A DNA stretch of 64,000 bases, from positions 1 through 64,000 of the IMG/VR virus record IMGVR_UViG_3300034104_005687, one strand, 5' to 3'. Below the pieces are notes generated by a model. It saw nothing but the letters and a program-made list of their open reading frames with translations, was not told where the DNA came from and searched no databases. This document shows positions 1,848 to 15,117 of this stretch, in pieces. Position 1 is the first letter of the stretch. Every line of letters begins with the position of its first letter. The position numbers and the translations under genes are program-made. Origin of the DNA: a virus.

Positions 1848-2000
1848 ATGAGCAAGATGAGCGAACTAGCAATGGATATTGAGTACTTGCTGAACAAGGG
1901 CATGAGCTTTGCAGAAGTTGCTCGAGAACTGGAAATTCCAGTGAGCTTTGTGATTGAAGCCAGCGAAGACTGTGATCCTTTTGCAACAATCAACAGTTGA
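1848..2000 (+). CDS. Small HTH-like protein (50 aa)
   Basis: ATG 1848 follows a good ribosome site (AAGGA at 1837-1841) and the promoter at 1789-1817. The 50-residue product contains a stretch like a helix-turn-helix: GMSFAEVARELEIPVSFV at residues 18-35, matching the 'S..EVA..L.I....V' pattern of small DNA-binding folds. It is too short for a full repressor, so it may bind DNA as a dimer or be an adaptor. Its stop codon TGA forms part of the -35 box of the next promoter. Function is inferred from pattern only. Confidence 0.7.
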   Translation: MSKMSELAMDIEYLLNKGMSFAEVARELEIPVSFVIEASEDCDPFATINS

Positions 2001-2025
2001 CCAATAAATCCCAATGCCTTATAAT
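1997..2025 (+). promoter_or_regulatory. Sigma70-type promoter for the MoxR ATPase
   Basis: TTGACC at 1997-2002, exactly 17 bp, and TATAAT at 2020-2025. The -35 box overlaps the TGA stop of the preceding small gene. Expected transcript start is near 2032, giving a leader of about 36 nt before ATG 2068. Confidence 0.9.
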
Positions 2026-2067: not shown

Positions 2068-3150
2068 ATGTCCGATACCCGCACCGTCTCTTCTGTTCAA
2101 GCTCGTCGCAGCCTGTTGTCTGCATTCAAAGTCAAACGTCCTGTGTTCCTGTGGGGGCCTCCAGGCATTGGCAAAAGTGAATTGGTCGAAGGCATTACCC
2201 AAGAACTAGGAGGCCTTATGATTGACCTGCGTTTGGGTCAGATGGAGCCCACTGACATTCGCGGTATTCCATTCTACAACAAAGAAAAGAACGTGATGGA
2301 ATATGCCCCTCCTGTGGACTTGCCCGATGCGGCCACAGCGGCTCAGTACCCTATTGTGGTGTTGTTCTTGGACGAAATGAACAGTGCCCCGGCCAGTGTT
2401 CAGAGTGCGGCTTATCAGCTGATTCTGAATCGTCGAGTGGGCAAGTATGTGTTGCCGGACAATGTTGTGATGGTGGCTGCTGGTAACCGTGAAAGCGACA
2501 AAGGTGTTACTTACCGCATGCCTACTCCTCTGGCAAACCGTTTCATCCACCAAGAGATGAAGGTGGACTTTGCTTCGTGGCAAGAGTGGGCTGTCAACAA
2601 CAGCATCCACAAAGACGTTGTGGGTTACTTGAGCTTTGCCAAGCAGGACCTGTATGACTTTGATGCCAAGAGTTCAAGTCGTGCATTTGCTACCCCACGT
2701 AGCTGGAGCTTTGTGAGCCAGTTGTTGGACGACGAGATTGACGACGACACTGTGACCAACTTGATTGCAGGTACTGTGGGCGAAGGTCTTGCTGTGAAAT
2801 TTATGGCACACCGCAAGATTGCAGGTCGTATGCCCAACCCCGTGGACATCTTGAAAGGCAAAGTCAAGGACTTGAATGTCAAAGAAGTCAGTGCCATGTA
2901 CAGCTTGGTGATCTCCATGTGTTACGAGCTCAAAGCACAAGTCGAAGGCAAGACAGTAGACAAAGAGTTCCACGAAATGGCTGACAACTTCTTTGGCTAC
3001 ATGATGAAGAACTTTGAGACTGAACTGGTAGTTATGGGTGCTCGTATTGCACTGACCACATACAACTTGCCATTCCAGCCCACCAAGTTGAAAAACTTTG
3101 ACGAGTTCCATCAGCGTTTCGGCAAGTACATTTTGCAAGCTAGTGCCTAA
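2068..3150 (+). CDS. MoxR-type AAA+ ATPase
   Basis: The 360-residue product has the AAA+ core: Walker A GPPGIGKS at 30-37, Walker B VVLFLDEMN at about 97-105 with D102/E103, sensor-1 AAGN at 137-140, and an LANRF arginine-finger region near 155-159. MoxR-family ATPases act as chaperones or remodellers with VWA-domain partners, and such a partner is encoded at 4743-6023 with a closely matching promoter. GAAAGG at 2057-2062 is the ribosome site. A textbook terminator follows the stop. The substrate in infection is unknown; remodelling of a host or phage complex is an inference. Confidence 0.9.
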   Translation: MSDTRTVSSVQARRSLLSAFKVKRPVFLWGPPGIGKSELVEGITQELGGLMIDLRLGQMEPTDIRGIPFYNKEKNVMEYAPPVDLPDAATAAQYPIVVLFLDEMNSAPASVQSAAYQLILNRRVGKYVLPDNVVMVAAGNRESDKGVTYRMPTPLANRFIHQEMKVDFASWQEWAVNNSIHKDVVGYLSFAKQDLYDFDAKSSSRAFATPRSWSFVSQLLDDEIDDDTVTNLIAGTVGEGLAVKFMAHRKIAGRMPNPVDILKGKVKDLNVKEVSAMYSLVISMCYELKAQVEGKTVDKEFHEMADNFFGYMMKNFETELVVMGARIALTTYNLPFQPTKLKNFDEFHQRFGKYILQASA

Positions 3151-3154
3151 AAAG

Positions 3155-3179
3155 AAAGCGGTAGAAATACCGCTTTTTT
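3155..3179 (+). terminator. Intrinsic terminator after the MoxR gene
   Basis: AAAGCGGTA (3155-3163), a GAAA tetraloop (3164-3167) and TACCGCTTT (3168-3176) form a 9-bp stem; the T-run extends to 3179. It lies 4 bp after the MoxR stop and 3 bp before the next ATG. Confidence 0.92.
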
Positions 3180-3182
3180 ATT

Positions 3183-3521
3183 ATGAAGTACAAAGTTACC
3201 AAACTCGACAAGCGATATAGCCAGAAAGAGTATTTTCAATTCATGATTGAATTTTCAAAGTCTCATTGGAAAGGAACCGGTGTACTAGATTTTGATCATG
3301 CTCGGAAATGGTTTAATAAAACATTTGGGTGGAGCCAAGATGTCGAAACTCGTTTGGCCATGATCCGAAGTGGCAGTGCCAATCCGTTACGAGCTGAGCC
3401 CGATGATATTAACCCTTATTGGGCATACTCTGCCAAGTACAACGATTATAGAATCTATGTGGGCACAGACAAAGAACTAAACTGGTTTGTACTAAGTAAT
3501 CCCAATGAAAGTCACAATTAA
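3183..3521 (+). CDS. Hypothetical phage protein (112 aa)
   Basis: The product is a soluble 112-residue protein with several aromatic and basic stretches (KDKEL, WFNKTFGW, YWAYSAKYNDYRIYVG). No known motif is recognised. The N-terminus MKYKVTKLD followed by a WF.K.FG segment resembles small hypothetical proteins of T4-like aquatic phages. ATG 3183 abuts the T-run of the upstream terminator and has no Shine-Dalgarno, so translation initiation here is unusual. The next gene overlaps its end by 17 bp. Confidence 0.65.
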   Translation: MKYKVTKLDKRYSQKEYFQFMIEFSKSHWKGTGVLDFDHARKWFNKTFGWSQDVETRLAMIRSGSANPLRAEPDDINPYWAYSAKYNDYRIYVGTDKELNWFVLSNPNESHN

Positions 3522-3801
3522 AAACAACCTGATTGTGTTTCATCGTCCCGGTGAATGGTCTGATGTGTATGCACGGATTCTGCAGGATTATGGCATGGGC
3601 ATGGCTGTGAGACCGCGACTGCGTCGTGAACTGGGCTTTGTGTACAGATATCACCGGGGACTGGTGCCCAACGCAACCCCCCGGAAAGATGGTCCTACCA
3701 TGTACTACGAAGACCAAGTACACCTAGATTTCTACTCGGATTCTGCACAATCTTGGTTTCAGTTAAAGTATCTAAATCTTAATACTCAAGTATTACCTTG
3801 A
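3505..3801 (+). CDS. Hypothetical protein (98 aa)
   Basis: The start at 3505 lies within the end of the preceding gene (17-bp overlap). The 98-residue product is basic in its middle (RPRLRRELGFVYRYHRG) and ends in a predicted beta-rich segment (HLDFYSDSAQSWFQLKYL). I recognise no family. It is probably translated together with 3183-3521. No ribosome site is evident upstream of the ATG. Confidence 0.6.
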   Translation: MKVTIKNNLIVFHRPGEWSDVYARILQDYGMGMAVRPRLRRELGFVYRYHRGLVPNATPRKDGPTMYYEDQVHLDFYSDSAQSWFQLKYLNLNTQVLP

Positions 3802-4007
3802 TATTTGCAAGATCTTGTAGCAAACCCACAGATCACGTGGTTTTTGTCAGACACAGGCGTGCTATCATGTTGATTTATATAGGGTTTTGATATGCTAAAA
3901 TCGCTGTTTTTGCTACTGTGAGCACAATAGCAAGATCTTCGTGAAATATTGCTGTAAAACGCCCAAGATCTCAAAAATGTATACTTTTTGCTACAGATAC
4001 AAAACGG
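3802..4007. other. Gene-free interval with CAAGATCT repeats and a weak hairpin
   Basis: No convincing gene lies here. It holds CAAGATCTTG at 3808-3817 (a perfect palindrome), CAAGATCTT at 3931-3939 and CAAGATCT at 3964-3971. A weak CCAC/GTGG hairpin followed by TTTTT near 3824-3845 could terminate the 3183-3801 operon. TTTTTGCTAC occurs twice (near 3907 and 3984) and resembles the TTTTGCTATAAT context of the real promoters. A regulatory leader or small RNA is possible but not shown. Confidence 0.4.
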
Positions 4008-4036
4008 TTGACCAAAAATCCCCATTTTGCTATAAT
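4008..4036 (+). promoter_or_regulatory. Sigma70-type promoter
   Basis: TTGACC at 4008-4013, 17 bp, TATAAT at 4031-4036 with TGC just upstream (extended -10). The leader carries AAGGAG at 4055-4060 before ATG 4067. Confidence 0.92.
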
Positions 4037-4066
4037 ATGAACATAGTAAGAAATAAGGAGCCACAA

Positions 4067-4441
4067 ATGACAGCATTTACATCTTGGGAAGACATGACAG
4101 AATTGGAACAGGCCCAGGCTACTTTTTGGGACATCTACAAAGACGCTTATGGCGTTCGTCCCCGTGGTATTGACACCAGTGGCTGGACCCTGGAGACCTT
4201 CCGTAAGGAATTTGACTATCTGGGTCAGCTCATTGAGCGTGAGGACATTGCTCGCAAGGCCGCCGAAGGCAAGGCTGTAGAAGCATTTGATCGCCGTGTT
4301 GCTGAATTGATCAGCATGGGCGCCAAGGACTCGGAAATGGCCATGCGTTGGATCCACGAAGCAGAAGGCACCCAAGGTGACAATGATTACCTTGCTTGGA
4401 CTTTGGGCTTGCCCTATCGATATTTTCGCAAAGCGGCTTAA
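4067..4441 (+). CDS. Conserved hypothetical phage protein (124 aa)
   Basis: The frame is open from 3941, but that would place the promoter inside the gene. ATG 4067, after AAGGAG at 4055-4060 and downstream of the -10 box, is the real start. The 124-residue acidic protein is helical, with SWEDMTELEQAQATFWDIYKDAYGVRPRG near the N-terminus and a helical middle rich in E, A and R. Small proteins with 'D.YK..YG.RPRG' are frequent in bacteriophages and of unknown function. It is strongly expressed, judging by the promoter and ribosome site. The 77-residue gene behind it is in the same transcript. Confidence 0.85.
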   Translation: MTAFTSWEDMTELEQAQATFWDIYKDAYGVRPRGIDTSGWTLETFRKEFDYLGQLIEREDIARKAAEGKAVEAFDRRVAELISMGAKDSEMAMRWIHEAEGTQGDNDYLAWTLGLPYRYFRKAA

Positions 4442-4451
4442 GGAGTCAAAT

Positions 4452-4685
4452 ATGTTGGTAGAACACACAAGATCTGGTTACTACAACGAACGCCATGGCG
4501 GTCCTTATGATCGTGGCCAGGCTGACAGCTACTACGGTCGCGAGTACAATCCTCACTACTTTGTGGGAGACTCTTACAACTCGCCCAAGATTGAGTTGGG
4601 TCAGATGACCCCAGCAGAGATCGTGGCCTACACCGCGGGGTATCGCGACAACGAAGCCAACGGCGACAAAAAATCCTGGGATTAA
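4452..4685 (+). CDS. Small Tyr/Gly-rich hypothetical protein (77 aa)
   Basis: ATG 4452 follows AAGGAG at 4440-4445, which overlaps the stop of the preceding gene; the open frame from 4377 would overlap that gene heavily and is not used. The first half is rich in Gly, Tyr, Asn and Arg (RSGYYNERHGGPYDRGQADSYYG) and may be disordered. The second half holds LGQMTPAEIVAYTAGYRDNE, a likely helix. No family recognised. Confidence 0.75.
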   Translation: MLVEHTRSGYYNERHGGPYDRGQADSYYGREYNPHYFVGDSYNSPKIELGQMTPAEIVAYTAGYRDNEANGDKKSWD

Positions 4686-4689
4686 CAGT

Positions 4690-4718
4690 TTGACCAATAA
4701 ATTGTCTTCAGCTATAAT
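4690..4718 (+). promoter_or_regulatory. Sigma70-type promoter for the VWA protein
   Basis: TTGACC at 4690-4695, a 17-bp spacer and TATAAT at 4713-4718. The first 10 bases (TTGACCAATA) match those of the MoxR promoter at 1997. AAGGAC at 4733-4738 is the ribosome site for ATG 4743. Confidence 0.92.
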
Positions 4719-4742
4719 ATACATATTGCAACAAGGACATCT

Positions 4743-6023
4743 ATGACTTCCACTACACAGACCAAAGACGACAAGAAAAAGTTTGCCAATCTACTGGGTC
4801 CAACTGACGCCAAAGTTGATCGAGAGGTTCGCGAAAAACTGATTACTGCTCGAGTGGGTTTACTGCTTCGTGCCAGCTTTTTTGGCAATTTGGCCACCCG
4901 TCTCAAACTGGTCAACGCCGATGAGTGGTGCTCAACAGCGGCCACAGATGGTCGCCACTTCTACTACAACAGCCGTTTCATTCAGATGTTGCGTCCCAGA
5001 GAGATCGAATTTTTGTTTGGACACGAGGTCTTGCATTGCGTTTATGACCACTTTGGACGCCGCGGAGATCGAGACCCGCAGTTGTTCAACATTGCCAATG
5101 ACTTTGCTGTCAACGCAGACTTGATCAAGCACCGTGTGGGAGAAAAGATTACCACAGTGCCTTGCCTGCACGATCCCAAGTATGATGGCATGAGCTCAGA
5201 AGAGATCTATGACATTTTGTACGAAAAAGCAGACAAAATTGACATCGGCGATTTACTGGATAAACTGATCGACGAGCACTTGGACGGTGATGGTGATGCC
5301 GACGGTGATGGTGATGGTGATCAAGAAGGCAAAGGCAAAGGTCGTCCCCAACTCAGTGCCGCAGATCGTCAGGCCATCAAGGACGAGATCAAAGAAGCCA
5401 TGTTGGCTGCCGCTCAGACCACAGACGGTGCAGGTAACATTCCTGCAGGCGTAATGCGCATGATCAAAGAGCTTACAGAACCACAGATGAACTGGCGTGA
5501 ACTGTTGCGTATGAACTTGGAGAGCACTATCAAGAGTGACTACACCTGGATGCGTCCTAGCCGTCGTGGATGGCACATGGATGCAGTGATGCCAGGTCGC
5601 AAAAACGACGAAATGATTGACATTGCTATTGCAATCGACACTTCAGGTTCGATTGGCGAGAAAATGCTCAAAGACTTCTTGGGCGAGATCCAAGGTATCA
5701 TGGACTCGTTCCCAGCATACAAGATTCACATTGTGAGTTTTGACACCGACACTTACAATCCTGTTCAGTACGATAGTGACAACTTGGATTCAATTGTGGA
5801 CTACGAGCCAGCAGGCGGTGGCGGCACAGACTTTGATGCTATCTATCGCTACTTGAAAAATGAGGACATCCAACCACGTCGATTAGTAGTGTTTACAGAC
5901 GGCTATCCGTTTGGCAGCTGGGGCGACGAAAACTACTGTGATGCTACCTGGATCTTGCATGGTACCACCAGCATTGTTCCACCCTGGGGCACTTACGCCT
6001 ACTACGAAGATGCAAAAGACTAA
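4743..6023 (+). CDS. DUF2201-type metallopeptidase-like and VWA-domain protein (MoxR partner)
   Basis: The 426-residue protein has two parts. Residues about 30-130 carry a zinc-peptidase-like signature, HEVLH at 94-98, followed by NIANDFAVN near 116-124, as in the DUF2201 N-terminal domain. A low-complexity acidic Gly-Asp linker spans about 180-200. Residues about 290-426 form a VWA domain with a complete metal-ion site: DTSGS at 299-303, Thr in GGGGTDF at 362, and FTDG with D386. Such proteins work with MoxR ATPases like the one at 2068-3150. Whether the HExxH site is catalytic is unknown. Its job may be to dismantle or mature a metal-bound complex. Confidence 0.88.
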   Translation: MTSTTQTKDDKKKFANLLGPTDAKVDREVREKLITARVGLLLRASFFGNLATRLKLVNADEWCSTAATDGRHFYYNSRFIQMLRPREIEFLFGHEVLHCVYDHFGRRGDRDPQLFNIANDFAVNADLIKHRVGEKITTVPCLHDPKYDGMSSEEIYDILYEKADKIDIGDLLDKLIDEHLDGDGDADGDGDGDQEGKGKGRPQLSAADRQAIKDEIKEAMLAAAQTTDGAGNIPAGVMRMIKELTEPQMNWRELLRMNLESTIKSDYTWMRPSRRGWHMDAVMPGRKNDEMIDIAIAIDTSGSIGEKMLKDFLGEIQGIMDSFPAYKIHIVSFDTDTYNPVQYDSDNLDSIVDYEPAGGGGTDFDAIYRYLKNEDIQPRRLVVFTDGYPFGSWGDENYCDATWILHGTTSIVPPWGTYAYYEDAKD

Positions 6024-7061: not shown

Positions 7062-7256
7062 ATGGAAAATCTACAACTCACTATAGCCGATATGGCTAGC
7101 TTGAAATCACTTCTTGAATTGGCTGCATCACGTGGCACATTCAAGGCAGCCGAAATGAGTCAGGTCGGTATTGTGTATGACAAACTGTCACGATTCTTAG
7201 ACGCCAGCACCGAACAGCTACGTCAACAACAAACATCAGGAGAGCAAAATGCTTAA
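7062..7256 (+). CDS. Small helical phage protein (64 aa)
   Basis: The 64-residue product is acidic and helical: LTIADMASLKSLLELAASRGTFKAAEMSQVGIVYDKLSRFL. The 'GTFKAAE...VG.VYDKL..FL' stretch is common in small T4-like phage proteins and has no assigned function. It has a weak ribosome site. Its end overlaps the next start by 8 bp, so the two are probably co-translated. Confidence 0.78.
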   Translation: MENLQLTIADMASLKSLLELAASRGTFKAAEMSQVGIVYDKLSRFLDASTEQLRQQQTSGEQNA

Positions 7257-7992
7257 ACACATAGGTAGACACGGAGACCGCAAGGTTGCAATTGTATTCA
7301 GACAGATCCCAGGCGAGGACCATATGTGCCTTGTGGTATATCCCGACGTACTTCCCACGCATATTCACAACTCAGTGTTGAGCGTGTTGGAGAGTGCACC
7401 AGGACAAGCAGCCACCACACTGGCAGACGTGTTTCATCGCAACTTGCTGCCCGACGGTCGTCCTATCTTGGAGGCCTTGCATCGCGAAGGCATGCTGAAA
7501 AAGATTGCCACAAATCAAGTGATTGTGACACCCACTGCCACTAGCTCAGTCAAGTTAGACGAACTCAACAGACTGGTCAAAGAAATGGAAAGCGGCGACG
7601 ACGCTCGCAAGCGCATGACCGAACTGGATGCCAACACAGGCATAGTGGATCCTGCTACCAAACGTCAGCAAGAACAAGAATTCAAAAAGCGCAGACTTGA
7701 ACAAGAGGCTGCCAGATCACAGCAAGGCCTGCCACCAGTGCCCGCTGGTTCAGATTCGGCACTGGACGACAAATCACTGGCATCCAACATGTTGGCTCAA
7801 GCCAAGAAAATGGAAATTGAAGCCAAGGGCTTGATTGCTGAAGCTGCCAGAATGAAAAAAGATGCCGAACGTATGCACCCAGGAGTGACAACAAACAGCG
7901 GCGTTGCTCCTGTTGTTCAAGAAGTCAAAGCCGAGCCAGCAGTGCGTCGTGGTCGCAAACCCAAAGTAGCGGCTACCAATGCAGTTCAGTGA
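7249..7992 (+). CDS. Conserved phage protein with coiled-coil and basic C-terminus (247 aa)
   Basis: The first ~85 residues form a compact domain (GDRKVAIVFRQIPGEDHMCLVVYPDVLP, then LESAPGQAATTLADVFHRNLLPDG). The middle and end are highly charged and helical, with likely coiled coils at about 105-150 and 175-210. The tail carries RRGRKPK, a lone AT-hook-like motif that may touch DNA. Proteins of this layout are standard in T4-like aquatic phages but not characterised. It overlaps the next gene by 14 bp. Confidence 0.75.
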   Translation: MLKHIGRHGDRKVAIVFRQIPGEDHMCLVVYPDVLPTHIHNSVLSVLESAPGQAATTLADVFHRNLLPDGRPILEALHREGMLKKIATNQVIVTPTATSSVKLDELNRLVKEMESGDDARKRMTELDANTGIVDPATKRQQEQEFKKRRLEQEAARSQQGLPPVPAGSDSALDDKSLASNMLAQAKKMEIEAKGLIAEAARMKKDAERMHPGVTTNSGVAPVVQEVKAEPAVRRGRKPKVAATNAVQ

Positions 7993-8281
7993 TGAATTTC
8001 TTGACAAGTGGGAACATTTAATCAAGGAAGCGCCCAAGACCGAAGTTCCACTTGAGTGTCTCAAAAAAATTATCATCAAGATGCATGGCAAGCGACAACG
8101 AACCATAAATCTTGATGTGTTACGAAAGCAGGGTCTGGACATTGTAGAAATTGAAGTAGTCCTTACCAGAACCTTGCTGGAACTTGATCAACAAGTCAGA
8201 GATATTGAATTTGTGGTTGACACTGTGCTAGTTGCAGAACTTGTTCAACCCGAGACTGATAAATTATTGAAAAATCTATGA
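7979..8281 (+). CDS. Conserved hypothetical phage protein (100 aa)
   Basis: A 100-residue soluble, helical protein. The basic segment KKIIIKMHGKRQRTINLDVLRKQGLD precedes a hydrophobic helix (IEVVLTRTLLELDQQV). It overlaps its upstream neighbour by 14 bp and the thyX start as ATGA, so the three genes 7249-8970 are probably one operon. No known domain recognised. Confidence 0.72.
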   Translation: MQFSDEFLDKWEHLIKEAPKTEVPLECLKKIIIKMHGKRQRTINLDVLRKQGLDIVEIEVVLTRTLLELDQQVRDIEFVVDTVLVAELVQPETDKLLKNL

Positions 8282-8970
8282 ATGTTACCCTTGTATCATA
8301 TTCACAGCCAACCGACGCATTTAGAACCCAAGGCATCGATGATGCACAAGAGCTTATTGCCTATTGTGCCCGTGTGTCCAACCCTGCCAACCAGTTCACA
8401 ACCGATACCAGCGAAAGACTTATCCGATACTTGGTCCGACACCAACACTGGAGCCCACTGGAAATGGTGTCAGCCTGTTGCGAAATCGTCACCACCCGCG
8501 ACATTGCCCGACAGATTCTACGTCACAGAAGTTTCAGCTTTCAAGAGTTCTCCCAGCGATATGCTGATCCTACAGCTGAACTCGATGAGGCGTTTGTGCT
8601 ACGTGAGGCACGATTCCAAGACACCAAGAATCGACAGAATAGCGTAGAATTGGACATGGCAGACGAAGCTCAACGGCTGTTGGCCATTGAATGGGAACGT
8701 GCGCAAAAACGTGTGTTGTTCAGTGTCAAACAAGAATATGCATGGGCCATCAAGAACGGCATTGCCAAAGAACAGGCCCGTGCTGTGTTGCCCGAAGGAC
8801 TCACAGTGAGTCGCATGTATATGAACGGTACCTTGCGTAGCTGGATTCATTTTATTGAACTGCGATCAGGCAATGGTACACAAAAAGAGCACATGGAAGT
8901 GGCTCGCGCATGTGCACAAGTTATTGCCAAAATCTTCCCAATGGCTGCCGACTTGGTTGCTAAAGACTAA
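8278..8970 (+). CDS. thyX: Flavin-dependent thymidylate synthase
   Basis: The 230-residue product carries the ThyX signature RHRSFSFQEFSQRY at residues 82-95 (RHRxxSxxxxS.R pattern), which binds dUMP and FAD. ThyX makes dTMP from dUMP with methylenetetrahydrofolate and reduced flavin, supplying thymidine for phage DNA. Length is normal for the family. The start overlaps the preceding stop as ATGA. A promoter-like element lies across the end of this gene (8957-8985). Confidence 0.95.
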   Translation: MNVTLVSYSQPTDAFRTQGIDDAQELIAYCARVSNPANQFTTDTSERLIRYLVRHQHWSPLEMVSACCEIVTTRDIARQILRHRSFSFQEFSQRYADPTAELDEAFVLREARFQDTKNRQNSVELDMADEAQRLLAIEWERAQKRVLFSVKQEYAWAIKNGIAKEQARAVLPEGLTVSRMYMNGTLRSWIHFIELRSGNGTQKEHMEVARACAQVIAKIFPMAADLVAKD

Positions 8971-10285: not shown

Positions 10286-11342
10286 ACAACTCCGCGAGGA
10301 GATTCTAGACGCAACTGATCAGGTACTGCAATCAGGTCAGCTCATGAACGGCGCCTGGACTCAGAAGTTTGAAAACTGGCTGGCTGTTAGGAACGGTGGC
10401 AAAAATGCTGTGACTTGCCACTCGGGCACACAGGCCTTGGAAATTATAGCCGAATATTGGCGTGGACTAGAACTAACCAATAAGTCGCCAAGAGTGTTGA
10501 TCCCTAGCTTGACGTTTGTGGCCACGGCCAATGCGTTCTTGCGAGCTGGTTGGGACGTACACTTTGTAGACGTGGATGTCAACGGGTTGCTTGACCCTGA
10601 TAAAATCCCCCAAGACCTTGATTATCAAGCCATAGTGTTGGTTGGTTTGTATGGCGCTGCTATTTCCCACGCTCATTCTGTAAAGGCCTGGACACATTGG
10701 TTACACAACAATGTCACAGTGATTGAAGATGCTGCACAACATTGGTTAGGCAACAATAGCCAACGAGTCGGCGAAGGCAGCGCCATCAGTTTTGACCCCA
10801 TGAAGAACTTGGCCTGTTATGGCAACGGTGGTGCAGTGGTCACAGACAACCAGGATCTAGCAGACTTTGCACGAGCCTGGCGCAATCACAACAAAGGTGA
10901 CTACAAGGCCGAACGTGGTGGCAGCAACAGTCGCATGAGCGAACTGGATTGTGCACACATGATGGTCAAAACACAGTACATTGATCAATGGCAAGCTCGT
11001 CGTCGCCGGATTGCTGCCTACATGTGTGAACGATTTGCAAATACCAGCATACGCTGTTTGATCAACGAACACAATGAGCACAATCATGCGTTTCACAAGT
11101 TTGTGATTGATGTTGATCAGCGCAATCGACTGCAAGAGAAACTGTGGAACGCCAGTATTGACACACGAATACACTATGAGCAACCCTTGCACGATAACTC
11201 TGTGTTGAGACAATTCCCCGGGCCCAACATGATGAGTGTAGCCACTGCACTGAGCCAGCGTGTGTTGAGTTTGCCTATCTATCCTGAGTTGTCAGACTTA
11301 GATGTGGAATATGTCACTGATCAGGTGTTAAAGAACGTTTGA
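10239..11342 (+). CDS. DegT/DnrJ/EryC1/StrS-family PLP sugar aminotransferase
   Basis: The 367-residue product begins with the family's N-terminus (IPFTGLQRQYKQLREEI). It has VIEDAAQ at 161-167, giving D164 for the PLP nitrogen, and K189 in SFDPMKNLACYGNGG as the probable Schiff-base lysine. Such enzymes transfer an amino group from glutamate to a keto-sugar, as in perosamine or related sugars. It overlaps the epimerase by 47 bp; start 10239 is kept because the conserved N-terminus begins there. Its 3' end overlaps the convergent repeat protein by 29 bp. Confidence 0.9.
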   Translation: MTGFRIPFTGLQRQYKQLREEILDATDQVLQSGQLMNGAWTQKFENWLAVRNGGKNAVTCHSGTQALEIIAEYWRGLELTNKSPRVLIPSLTFVATANAFLRAGWDVHFVDVDVNGLLDPDKIPQDLDYQAIVLVGLYGAAISHAHSVKAWTHWLHNNVTVIEDAAQHWLGNNSQRVGEGSAISFDPMKNLACYGNGGAVVTDNQDLADFARAWRNHNKGDYKAERGGSNSRMSELDCAHMMVKTQYIDQWQARRRRIAAYMCERFANTSIRCLINEHNEHNHAFHKFVIDVDQRNRLQEKLWNASIDTRIHYEQPLHDNSVLRQFPGPNMMSVATALSQRVLSLPIYPELSDLDVEYVTDQVLKNV

Positions 11343-14300
11343 CAAACGCATAGCTTGCGAGCCAATCCCACTCGTAGCTCTTGCGGAGCTCAGTGGGATC
11401 ACCTTTGACCTCTTCATAGTACTCCACAGCATCCTGTGCGCCTTTATGACTCCAATGTCCATTGGCAATGGTGCCGGAGTCTTCTTTTAACCAGACATTG
11501 AGTCTGTATTCATTTTCCACGTTGGGTAAACTTGCACGTAGTTTAAGTGCTTCACGGAAAGCTGTGCGCCAGGCCATCCAAGGCGATTCAGCATAGTTGG
11601 CTGTGCCACTGAGAATAGGTACAACTTCGTGCGCCTGATCTAGCGTAAAGTCCAGGCCAACACCTGTGTTCTCCAACGCCAACTTCTTGTTGTAGGCAAT
11701 CATGGCTTGGTGACCATACACCAATCCATTGACAGGATTGCCAGCATGAAAGATATAGTGCTTGGGCTGTTGCATACGATCTGGCTGCCAGGTCCAATCA
11801 AACTTGGCGTCAACTTCTAACTTGGCAAACACAGCAAAGAACCAAGGTGTGGTACTGGCTCGTGCTGCCGCATGATAAGCTGCCACACGACCTTTTACTC
11901 CTGATACCATATGTACTTTGTTGGTATGTGATGAGTTGGCTAGATACATCTGCATTTGCAAATAATTAGATGCAGAATTGGGTTCGCCATTGCTGATAAA
12001 CACAATGTCCAGTGGCTGATCGCCATGACGTTTACGTTGTGTCTTGTCAATATGTGCATAATCGTACAGTTGCGTTTTAACATCACCTCGAGCTACTTTT
12101 GGCACAATCACTGCACTGGCACCTGTGCTCAACGGCACAATAGTTTTGACTTCTTGACGCCAAAGAGGAACGGTGGGCATTGTGATAGGCACACCATTTG
12201 TGGTGAACAATGCCAAGGGTCCGGCCCAATCTACATTCTTGACTGCATCCACATGCGAATCAGCAGTGTGTTCAATCACAGGCATGGATCTACGTGGTAC
12301 ACTCCGGCGGGATACATAGTTCACACTATACCATTCCAGCAAAGCTTTCTTTTCGGCACGTTCGGCAAAGGTAGGTACATGCATGTAGAATGTGTCCCCA
12401 AACTTTTGTTCATTGCTGGGGAATACATGCAACATTGTACTTTGCCAGATCTCTGGGTGCCATGAAAAGTCAAAGCCAGTGTAATCGCAAATTGAACTGC
12501 ATATCCACACATGCTCGTATTGCCCCACAAGGCTCCGGGCCAAACGTATTAGTGTATCTCTGTAGTTGTCAAAGTAACGTACTTTTTTAACTACATCTGG
12601 AATTTGCCCTGCGTTGCCATCCAGGTGATCAATTTCAAATATAGGTGCAGCTTCTTGCTTGACTTCTGCCCTCATCATGTCCACATACTTGAACTCAGTG
12701 GCACCAGGCATGCGATACTGCGGTCCTCCAGTCTTTTGATGCTGTGTGGCAAATTGATAGATGTAGGCTGGTTCGCCTGGGTCTGGCTGCCAACTGAAGT
12801 CCATATCAGTAGTGTTCACATATTCAGGAATGGTCCAATTGGTCATATTCGTCAACAAGTTAGCAACCGGTCCTGTCATGTACTTGCGCTCAGTGGCACT
12901 GGGCATGTGATATTCTACAGTGGGCATTTTCTCTGCTGGCCACCACTGGTTACCAAACACATAGATGTAGGGTGGTGATCCAGGTTCGGGTCTCCAGGTA
13001 TAATCCCATTCACAGTCTATGACGGTGTGCCAGTGATTATCGTGTTGAGGCAACAACTGTGCAGGGATATCCATGTACTTGAGTTCTGTAGCACCCAGCA
13101 TGTGATATTCTACAGTGGGCATTACTTCTGCTGAATAGTACTGATTACCAAACACATAGTTATAAGGTGGTGATCCTGGATCGGGTTCCCACGACCAATC
13201 AAAGCTCGCAGGATAGTGTTGTGTAAACCGTGTATGATCCCCACGACGTTGTGCTCGCGGATGATCCATGTATTTGATTTGTGTAGCACCTGTTACTGCA
13301 TACTGTAATGCGGGACGTTGTTCAGGCGTGAGCCACTGATTACCAAACACATACGTATAAGGAGGATCTGTGGGATTGGGCCGCCAGGAGTAATCAAACG
13401 ATTCAATGTCATCCAACAATTCCCAAGCAGCCACGTCTTGTGCTAGTGTAGCAACAATATCATCTACATACTTGATTTCAGTGCCGCCGGCATTGTACAC
13501 TACTGTGGGTTCTAGTACAGCCGAGTTCCATTGGTTACCGAACACATAGGTCATTGGTGGATCAAAAGGATTTGGTTCCCACGAATAGTCAAATTCACTG
13601 ACCGCTAGGTTATGTCCGAACAGGCGTGGTTGCGGCAGTCTGCGTGTGCGTCTATCCATGTACTTGACTTCGATGGCGCCCGGAACAACATACTTGACAC
13701 TGGCTTTGAACTCTGGCTGATTCCATTGATTACCGAACACGTAAATATAGGGTGGATCTTTAGGATTAGGAACCCAGGTCCAGTCCCACCTACTATTATC
13801 AACATCCTCGCATAACTCCCAGTTGGCCATGTTGTCACCTAGTTGAGCAACCACATTGTCAACAAATTTTTCCTGTGTTGCACCAGACATTTCGTAAACC
13901 ACAGTGGGCATTTCTATACCTGGCCAATGTTGATTGCCAAACACATAATTGTAAGGCGGTTCTGTATTGTCAGGATGCCAGGAGTAATCAAATCCTTGTA
14001 TAATTTCTAAATTCTTAAACAACTGTTTATTAGGTAATCTGCGATGCAATATTTCTACATACTTGCGTTCTACAGCACCAGGTACTACATAACAAGCACC
14101 GCCATTGGGTTGCCACTGAGTAGCAAATTCATATATGTAAGGGTTGTCTCCTGGATCAGGCCGCCAAGAATAATCCACGCTTAACGGATCAACATAATCT
14201 GGTACTTGCCAGTTGGTCTTGTCCGCAAGTATCCTGGCAGTCATGTCCATGTATTTGCGTTCAGTAGCACCGGTGACGTGATACTCAACTGTGGCCATTT

Positions 14301-15117
14301 TCTCTGCACTCCACCACTGATTACCAAACACGTAAATGTAAGGCGGATCTCCAGGATCTGGTTCCCAGGCCCAATCAAACTCACAAGGATACAAACAACA
14401 AAATTTACTTTTGTCTGGTAGTCGTTGTGTACGAATATTGTGCATGTACTTTTTTACAGTTGCACCGGGCACATGATACTCTACACTAGAACGAGATTCT
14501 GCTGGCCAATGTTGATTGCCAAACACATAAATCATTGGAGGATCAAATGGATTTGGGTGCCAGTTAAACACAGGATCATGTTCATCTACGTTATCATGTG
14601 TCTGCCAGTCTTTGCGATCCGACTGTGTACGAGCAACAAACACATCCATGTATTTGCGTTCTGTTGCTCCGGGCACACGGTATTCTGGGCCACCTACTCT
14701 ATCCCAATCCCATTCTACAGGAAACTCATATATGTACGGAGGATCTGTGGGATTAGGTGCCCATGTATAGTTTATACTAGCAGGATCAATCCATTTGGGT
14801 ATGTGCCAGTAGCTGATATCAGGCAGTCTGTGTACGGTGCGCTCGCTGTGATAATTTGTTTCAGTATATCCAGCTTTGGGAATAAGATAAACACCTGCAT
14901 CAATTTGATATTGATCTAACCATGCATGTCGCTGATGTGCTTGCCATGGTGGTGGCTCATAAAGCCAATCCCAGTCTGAGTAGTCTGCTAAGTAGTTTGC
15001 TATCCAAAAATACCTTGTGCGACTCAGTTGTTGCGCATGCTGAATAGATTCAACTGCTCGTTCATGAGCAAACAAATTGGGCTTGTGTCCCGATGCAAAA
15101 TAAAATACGTCAAACAT
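11314..15117 (-). CDS. Giant repeat protein with C-terminal glycosyltransferase-like domain (1267 aa)
   Basis: The protein has three parts. Residues 1-90 are an N-terminal domain with an SDWDWLYEPPPW segment. Residues about 92-815 hold eleven repeats of 61-69 residues with the pattern FDYSW.P(D/N)P..PPYIYVFGNQW, then TVEYH.PGATE.KYMD. After about 1025 a C-terminal domain resembles the transferase at 32501-33424: VKG..AAY..AA..S, NPVNGLVYGHQA, SPWMAWRTAFREA and NG.W...GA.. align. That transferase has DGD at its metal site, whereas here the same place reads FAKLEV, so catalysis may be lost. The repeats look like copies of the core of this same domain. The role is unknown; a glycan-binding scaffold is one possibility. 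Confidence 0.8.
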   Translation of the reverse strand: MFDVFYFASGHKPNLFAHERAVESIQHAQQLSRTRYFWIANYLADYSDWDWLYEPPPWQAHQRHAWLDQYQIDAGVYLIPKAGYTETNYHSERTVHRLPDISYWHIPKWIDPASINYTWAPNPTDPPYIYEFPVEWDWDRVGGPEYRVPGATERKYMDVFVARTQSDRKDWQTHDNVDEHDPVFNWHPNPFDPPMIYVFGNQHWPAESRSSVEYHVPGATVKKYMHNIRTQRLPDKSKFCCLYPCEFDWAWEPDPGDPPYIYVFGNQWWSAEKMATVEYHVTGATERKYMDMTARILADKTNWQVPDYVDPLSVDYSWRPDPGDNPYIYEFATQWQPNGGACYVVPGAVERKYVEILHRRLPNKQLFKNLEIIQGFDYSWHPDNTEPPYNYVFGNQHWPGIEMPTVVYEMSGATQEKFVDNVVAQLGDNMANWELCEDVDNSRWDWTWVPNPKDPPYIYVFGNQWNQPEFKASVKYVVPGAIEVKYMDRRTRRLPQPRLFGHNLAVSEFDYSWEPNPFDPPMTYVFGNQWNSAVLEPTVVYNAGGTEIKYVDDIVATLAQDVAAWELLDDIESFDYSWRPNPTDPPYTYVFGNQWLTPEQRPALQYAVTGATQIKYMDHPRAQRRGDHTRFTQHYPASFDWSWEPDPGSPPYNYVFGNQYYSAEVMPTVEYHMLGATELKYMDIPAQLLPQHDNHWHTVIDCEWDYTWRPEPGSPPYIYVFGNQWWPAEKMPTVEYHMPSATERKYMTGPVANLLTNMTNWTIPEYVNTTDMDFSWQPDPGEPAYIYQFATQHQKTGGPQYRMPGATEFKYVDMMRAEVKQEAAPIFEIDHLDGNAGQIPDVVKKVRYFDNYRDTLIRLARSLVGQYEHVWICSSICDYTGFDFSWHPEIWQSTMLHVFPSNEQKFGDTFYMHVPTFAERAEKKALLEWYSVNYVSRRSVPRRSMPVIEHTADSHVDAVKNVDWAGPLALFTTNGVPITMPTVPLWRQEVKTIVPLSTGASAVIVPKVARGDVKTQLYDYAHIDKTQRKRHGDQPLDIVFISNGEPNSASNYLQMQMYLANSSHTNKVHMVSGVKGRVAAYHAAARASTTPWFFAVFAKLEVDAKFDWTWQPDRMQQPKHYIFHAGNPVNGLVYGHQAMIAYNKKLALENTGVGLDFTLDQAHEVVPILSGTANYAESPWMAWRTAFREALKLRASLPNVENEYRLNVWLKEDSGTIANGHWSHKGAQDAVEYYEEVKGDPTELRKSYEWDWLASYAFVKRSLTPDQ
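12670..14844 (-). repeat. About eleven tandem protein-coding repeats of 183-206 bp
   Basis: Spacing between the copies of the FGNQ-coding segment is 183 to 206 bp. The units are diverged at the DNA level, so the array is old, not a recent slippage product. Two units (FATQWQPNGG and FATQHQKTGG) are a distinct, shorter subtype, which gives the array an internal order. Confidence 0.85.

Follow-up and report, generated by a model that had tools for sequence, protein, structure and literature searches.

A MoxR-type ATPase and a VWA-metallopeptidase-like protein form a co-inherited gene pair with dedicated promoters in a large phage and its relatives

What use does a phage make of a gene pair whose bacterial counterparts remodel or mature protein complexes? 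The question is raised by a locus in the first 64 kb (hereafter the window) of the 349,369-bp virus record IMGVR_UViG_3300034104_005687. Here the gene for a MoxR-type AAA+ ATPase is followed by that for a DUF2201 protein in which a metallopeptidase-like domain is joined to a VWA domain (the VWA protein). Judging from the tail sheath, baseplate, head, and DNA polymerase genes that the record also holds, its source is a large tailed phage. Our analyses show that the two genes are intact, co-inherited, and co-diverging, and that they are conserved at every catalytic position tested.

The ATPase and its VWA partner

Both open reading frames (ORFs) are complete and are separated by 1592 bp, in agreement with the 1.6 kb of a first-pass annotation made from the sequence, which had also described the ATPase as complete. 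The latter protein matches phrog_1297 (4.5e-96) and, above cut-off, the Pfam models AAA_3, AAA_5, and AAA. It contains a Walker A motif, GPPGIGKS, with K36, the Walker B residues D102 and E103, and the sensor and arginine residues N140, R158, and R211, all of which are kept in every MoxR that has the position (139 sequences). The segment comprising residues 53–86 is also highly conserved. Compared with the bpMoxR proteins of conflict systems (PF20030), the ATPase scored 18.1 bits, below the curated cut-off of 27.

The VWA protein harbors the two sites that the same annotation had reported, an HEVLH motif and an intact VWA metal site. Its N-terminal metallopeptidase-like domain (residues 31–275) contains an HExxHxxxxH motif, with HEVLH at residues 94–98, and its C-terminal VWA domain (residues 294–417) contains a complete metal-ion-dependent adhesion site composed of D299-x-S301-x-S303, T362, and D386. 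The protein is matched by PF13203 (5e-40), PF09967 (8e-15), and phrog_1314 (1.4e-105). Residues H94, E95, H98, H103, D120, D299, S301, S303, T362, and D386 are invariant in all 145 VWA proteins compared, and because the HExxH glutamate is among them we favor real peptidase chemistry over mere metal binding. The AlphaFold model of the protein has a mean predicted local distance difference test score of 76, and Foldseek matches it to solved VWA domains, the best being BatB (E=2.7e-5); the matches listed span ~130–200 alignment columns, as fits one domain. Just before the VWA domain, in a segment (residues 262–287) that is not confidently modeled, D266, R274, W277, P284, and G285 are invariant or nearly so.

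The family phrog_1314 carries the label "HNH endonuclease." The window protein, N4 gp25, and the homologue from the vequintavirus WalterGehring match no HNH model in Pfam; all three are covered by PF13203 and PF09967, and the label is probably an annotation error. Many GenBank and RefSeq phage records label DUF2201 metallopeptidase–VWA proteins in this way, or as "anti-sigma factor" or "homing endonuclease," and the "HNH endonuclease" label hides the pair from view.

The loci used for comparison, 157 in number, were retrieved with the VWA protein, and the count therefore measures how often MoxR accompanies VWA. MoxR lies upstream of VWA on the same strand in 153 of them, with a gap of 65–6321 bp; of the four exceptions, three are truncated at a contig end and the fourth carries MoxR ~10 kb upstream. 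Both genes are present in every one of the 157 loci with enough sequence. Cultured phage records matching the two proteins number 794 and 847, and for each host genus the two counts are the same or almost so. The catalytic residues of both proteins are kept in eleven divergent phages at 25–50% identity, including N4, phage G, cyanophage S-TIM5, Thermus phage phiFa, and one vequintavirus. Against near relatives, the pairwise ratios of nonsynonymous to synonymous substitution (dN/dS) are 0.05–0.13 for the pair and 0.06–0.13 for MoxR, values that are rough given the high dS and that indicate purifying selection. The first-pass annotation had raised the prospect of degraded remnants in relatives; these were looked for and were not seen.

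The two proteins have also diverged together. Distances among MoxR proteins correlate with those among VWA proteins at r=0.91, compared with 0.63 for the thymidylate synthase ThyX over the same 71 loci; the value for gene X, a conserved third gene of the locus, is 0.72. These are raw distance correlations and not a formal coevolution test. Vequintaviruses keep both genes on opposite strands, 4–5 kb apart. In WalterGehring the VWA gene is directly preceded by bas51_0056 (L178:5933–6910), which is annotated as an anti-sigma factor and whose PHROG matches are to endonucleases and to sigma70 decoy/Srd anti-sigma families. On the sequence comparisons, the MoxR–VWA pair is an old unit, and it is among the gene sets widely shared in large lytic phages, including the laboratory coliphages N4 and the vequintaviruses.

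Promoters of the two genes

Each gene of the pair is preceded by a σ70-type promoter of the form TTGACC-N17-TATAAT. The promoters at 1997 and 4690 have TTGACCAATAAAT and TATAAT in common and differ in the remainder of the spacer, and the window contains further promoters of the same family at 1789 and 4008. Thus, the near-identical strong promoters noted in the first-pass annotation do exist, but they are not unique to the pair. The record contains 37 exact TTGAC-18-TATAAT sites with a common spacer (consensus TTGACCAAAAATTCCCAATTTGCTATAAT), all on the + strand, which rules out promoters special to the MoxR–VWA pair within this phage. When one mismatch is allowed, 79 sites are found in the record versus 11–19 in simulated sequence. 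The 37-site family is likely an early-gene promoter class. The sites cluster near 159–160, 192–193, and 233–241 kb of the record.

Among the genes of the locus in relatives, dedicated promoters are special to MoxR and VWA. A promoter with at most 2 of 12 mismatches is located before MoxR and before VWA in about 93% of loci; for MoxR the share is 93–94%, compared with 6% in shuffled sequence. Promoters of the same strength are found in 1–9% of cases for gene X, ThyX, p7979, the epimerase, DegT, and two small ORFs behind MoxR, in 27% for p8991, in 18% for other forward ORFs, and in 5–6% for shuffled sequence. Moreover, where the MoxR–VWA gap is less than 250 bp, VWA still has its own promoter in 30 of 32 loci.

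Promoter classes in the record were judged on 18 sampled genes. Ten of these lie behind the σ70-type family; an exonuclease, an endonuclease, and a homing endonuclease are among them, and no recognized virion gene is. The T4-late-like motif TATAAATA occurs at 15 sites in the record, against about 5 expected, and in the eight genes tested it precedes those for the tail sheath, the baseplate hub, and two other virion-type proteins; it is not virion-exclusive, as it also precedes the DNA polymerase gene and, further off, a gene for a single-stranded DNA-binding protein. Early expression of the pair from host-type promoters is, from these motifs, reasonable but not proven.

Function of the pair

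We lean toward a model in which the two proteins form one ATP-driven machine that is made early and serves a core process of the phage within the cell. By analogy with NorQ–NorD, RavA–ViaA, and Midasin, six MoxR subunits would form a ring that docks onto the partner's VWA domain and, by hydrolyzing ATP, pulls or twists the partner. The contact may be NorQD-like, between residues 262–287 of the VWA protein and residues 53–86 of MoxR. The movement would open the fused zinc-peptidase domain, or would deliver a target to it, and a specific protein complex would thereby be remodeled or cut once through limited proteolysis by the predicted peptidase. The target would most likely be a complex at work in the replication or nucleotide phase, or host machinery that is to be taken over at that stage. 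The dedicated promoters and fixed catalytic sites lead to a specific prediction, that the pair is expressed early and that its function depends on E95 and K36.

The chief alternative is a virion-assembly chaperone with a processing peptidase, which would mature or cut structural proteins late, by analogy with ATV p618/p892. Iyer et al. (2021, PMC7824862) proposed this for group 2.2 jumbo phages, in which they described MoxR and a peptidase-fused vWA protein as a chaperone–cochaperone pair. We favor an early intracellular role over late virion processing because of four lines of evidence. First, the pair is found in podoviruses and myoviruses with unrelated virions. Second, both genes have host-type promoters of a family not seen before recognized virion genes in this phage, in which the tail sheath, baseplate hub, and head genes lie behind TATAAATA instead (with one copy before the DNA polymerase gene). 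Third, the N4 pair sits among middle, nucleotide-metabolism, and replication genes, with gp30 (Thy1) 1.5 kb away. Fourth, homologues of N4 gp24/gp25 are absent from the LIT1 virion proteome.

However, several observations count against the early machine, and some of them speak for assembly. The pair also adjoins virion genes, those for tail and head, in RaK2, XaC1, and S-TIM5, and the PA5oct MoxR carries an electrospray ionization tandem mass spectrometry (ESI-MS/MS) note, a detection that would fit virion association or contamination. Assembly factors can be made early, so early promoters are not decisive against assembly. The early timing in this phage is itself deduced from a promoter motif, and the association with neighboring genes may merely mirror common expression timing. 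In addition, the model of the peptidase domain has no close solved peptidase among the matches listed; compared with solved structures, this part gave a weak sequence match only, to the small archaeal protein MJ1213 (E=0.007). Taken together, we regard virion assembly as a serious but doubtful account of the pair.

The first-pass annotation had suggested that the pair could disarm a host complex or a defense system. Such counter-defense or host takeover would suit the early-type promoters. N4 and vequintaviruses also carry the pair in the region of the rII genes, a counter-defense module studied in five phages including N4, and plasmids carry related MoxR–VWA operons. The suggestion was not borne out, as the near-universal retention of the co-inherited pair and its strong conservation across very different lineages and hosts look like those of a core gene set, unlike the patchy occurrence of anti-defense genes. 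PADLOC gave only weak generic AAA matches for the ATPase (DolB, IetA) and no match for the VWA protein; it pointed to no specific family, and no defense target is suggested. Counter-defense is possible but unsupported, and to our minds improbable. A defense gene carried by the phage likewise finds no PADLOC support. It is very unlikely that the zinc-site domain only binds metal and that the machine is a CobS/CobT-like or NorQ/NorD-like activase supplying a phage or host enzyme with its cofactor. Metal insertion is a common job of bacterial MoxR–VWA pairs, and in a CobS/CobT check the ATPase gave a weak match to phrog_249 (porphyrin biosynthesis, 4e-5) and no NCBIfam match above cut-off. Against this reading, no conserved metalloenzyme partner lies beside the pair, and the invariant E95 is the catalytic acid/base of HExxH, not a metal ligand.

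Neighboring genes and known relatives

Gene X is present in 140 of the 157 loci and in 35 of 41 VWA clusters. It also occurs in PA5oct, RaK2, XaC1, Munch, and Atu_ph07, near the pair in the first three and further off in Atu_ph07. Its model has a confident folded N-terminal domain followed by long helices that form a helical tail, and no fold match was found in the Protein Data Bank (best E=1.2). Gene X is a candidate adaptor or substrate of the pair. An extended form of the early machine, which we put forward tentatively and consider unlikely as a whole, would have three parts: the MoxR ring, the VWA-peptidase, and the gene X protein, a dedicated adaptor or substrate through which the peptidase would be supplied with a complex of the replication or transcription phase.

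Table 1. Features of the MoxR–VWA locus in the window
Feature	Position	Strand	Description
σ70-type promoter of MoxR gene	1997..2025	+	TTGACCAATAAATCCCAATGCCTTATAAT; exact TTGAC/TATAAT, 17-bp spacer
MoxR-type AAA+ ATPase	2068..3150	+	360 aa; phrog_1297, the family of N4 gp24
Four small ORFs separating MoxR and VWA	3183-3521, 3505-3801, 4067-4441, 4452-4685 (span 3183..4685)	+	Variable among relatives
σ70-type promoter before small ORF 4067-4441	4008..4036	+	TTGACCAAAAATCCCCATTTTGCTATAAT
σ70-type promoter of VWA gene	4690..4718	+	TTGACCAATAAATTGTCTTCAGCTATAAT; TTGACC-N17-TATAAT
DUF2201 (VWA) protein	4743..6023	+	426 aa; phrog_1314; same family as N4 gp25
Gene X, conserved third gene of the locus	7249..7992	+	247 aa; phrog_15894
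ThyX thymidylate synthase	8278..8970	+	Conserved neighbor; context, not proposed as part of the machine

The four small ORFs between the two genes are probably not part of the MoxR–VWA machine; the family of the 3183 ORF occurs in 14 of 41 VWA clusters and that of the 4067 ORF in a few loci only. Downstream of the pair, up to 33 of 41 clusters have a thymidylate synthase in the same slot, ThyX in 16 and a ThyA-like enzyme in 17. The ThyA-like enzyme is unrelated to ThyX and is sometimes accompanied by a gene resembling that for dihydrofolate reductase (DHFR), a non-homologous replacement within a fixed gene order; the ThyA and DHFR identities were read from the sequences. XaC1 repeats the order MoxR, VWA, small ORF, X, thymidylate synthase at ~29–37% identity.

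Further along the window, a long run (9317–35342) adjoining tail genes encodes a sugar-nucleotide epimerase, a DegT-like aminotransferase, and glycosyltransferase-, amidinotransferase-, and carbamoyltransferase-like ORFs, as well as several CxxxCxxC radical-SAM-like ORFs (roles read by eye). At 11314–15117 on the − strand lies a 1267-aa ORF composed of many degenerate repeats around YxYVFGNQW...YHVPGATERKYM.

The MoxR–VWA pair is already known; we found no earlier description of its dedicated promoters, of the co-divergence, or of gene X. In the literature searched, with most subscription papers outside its coverage, we found no work on the function of N4 gp24/gp25 or of their jumbo-phage counterparts. 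The closest cultured relatives are EST35_0335 (the ATPase) and EST35_0340 of PA5oct, with 52% and 44.5% identity and with gene X 2 kb away; PA5oct differs in having a homing endonuclease between the pair and gene X on the opposite strand. N4 gp24 and gp25 are core genes of the N4-like phages (Schitoviridae). They belong to the same two families as the window pair (E < 1e-95 for window and N4; 2.1e-136 for gp24 against phrog_1297), in the same order, with all catalytic residues kept and ThyX nearby, at 27–28% identity to the window proteins. The part of N4 that was examined shows no gene X, and the middle genes of N4 depend for transcription on N4 RNA polymerase II, not on host σ70 promoters.

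Outside phages, plasmid operons (Cupriavidus pMTS2, Synechocystis pSYSA) contain the same DUF2201 protein adjoining an ATP-binding or MoxR protein, at less than 33% identity, and pMTS2 has between them a DUF3150 gene, of a family not found in the window. NorQ–NorD and RavA–ViaA also combine a MoxR ring with a VWA partner, and in NorQ–NorD the VWA domain inserts a finger into the pore of the ring, and the partner is twisted as ATP is hydrolyzed. These systems are described as inserting metal and maturing complexes rather than acting as peptidases, and they serve here as a working analogy. The group 2.2 jumbo phage pair (Iyer et al. 2021, PMC7824862) shares this architecture, down to a peptidase at the N terminus of the vWA protein. 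Compared with the assembly role proposed for that pair, the promoters, gene X, and co-divergence described here add evidence for an early one.

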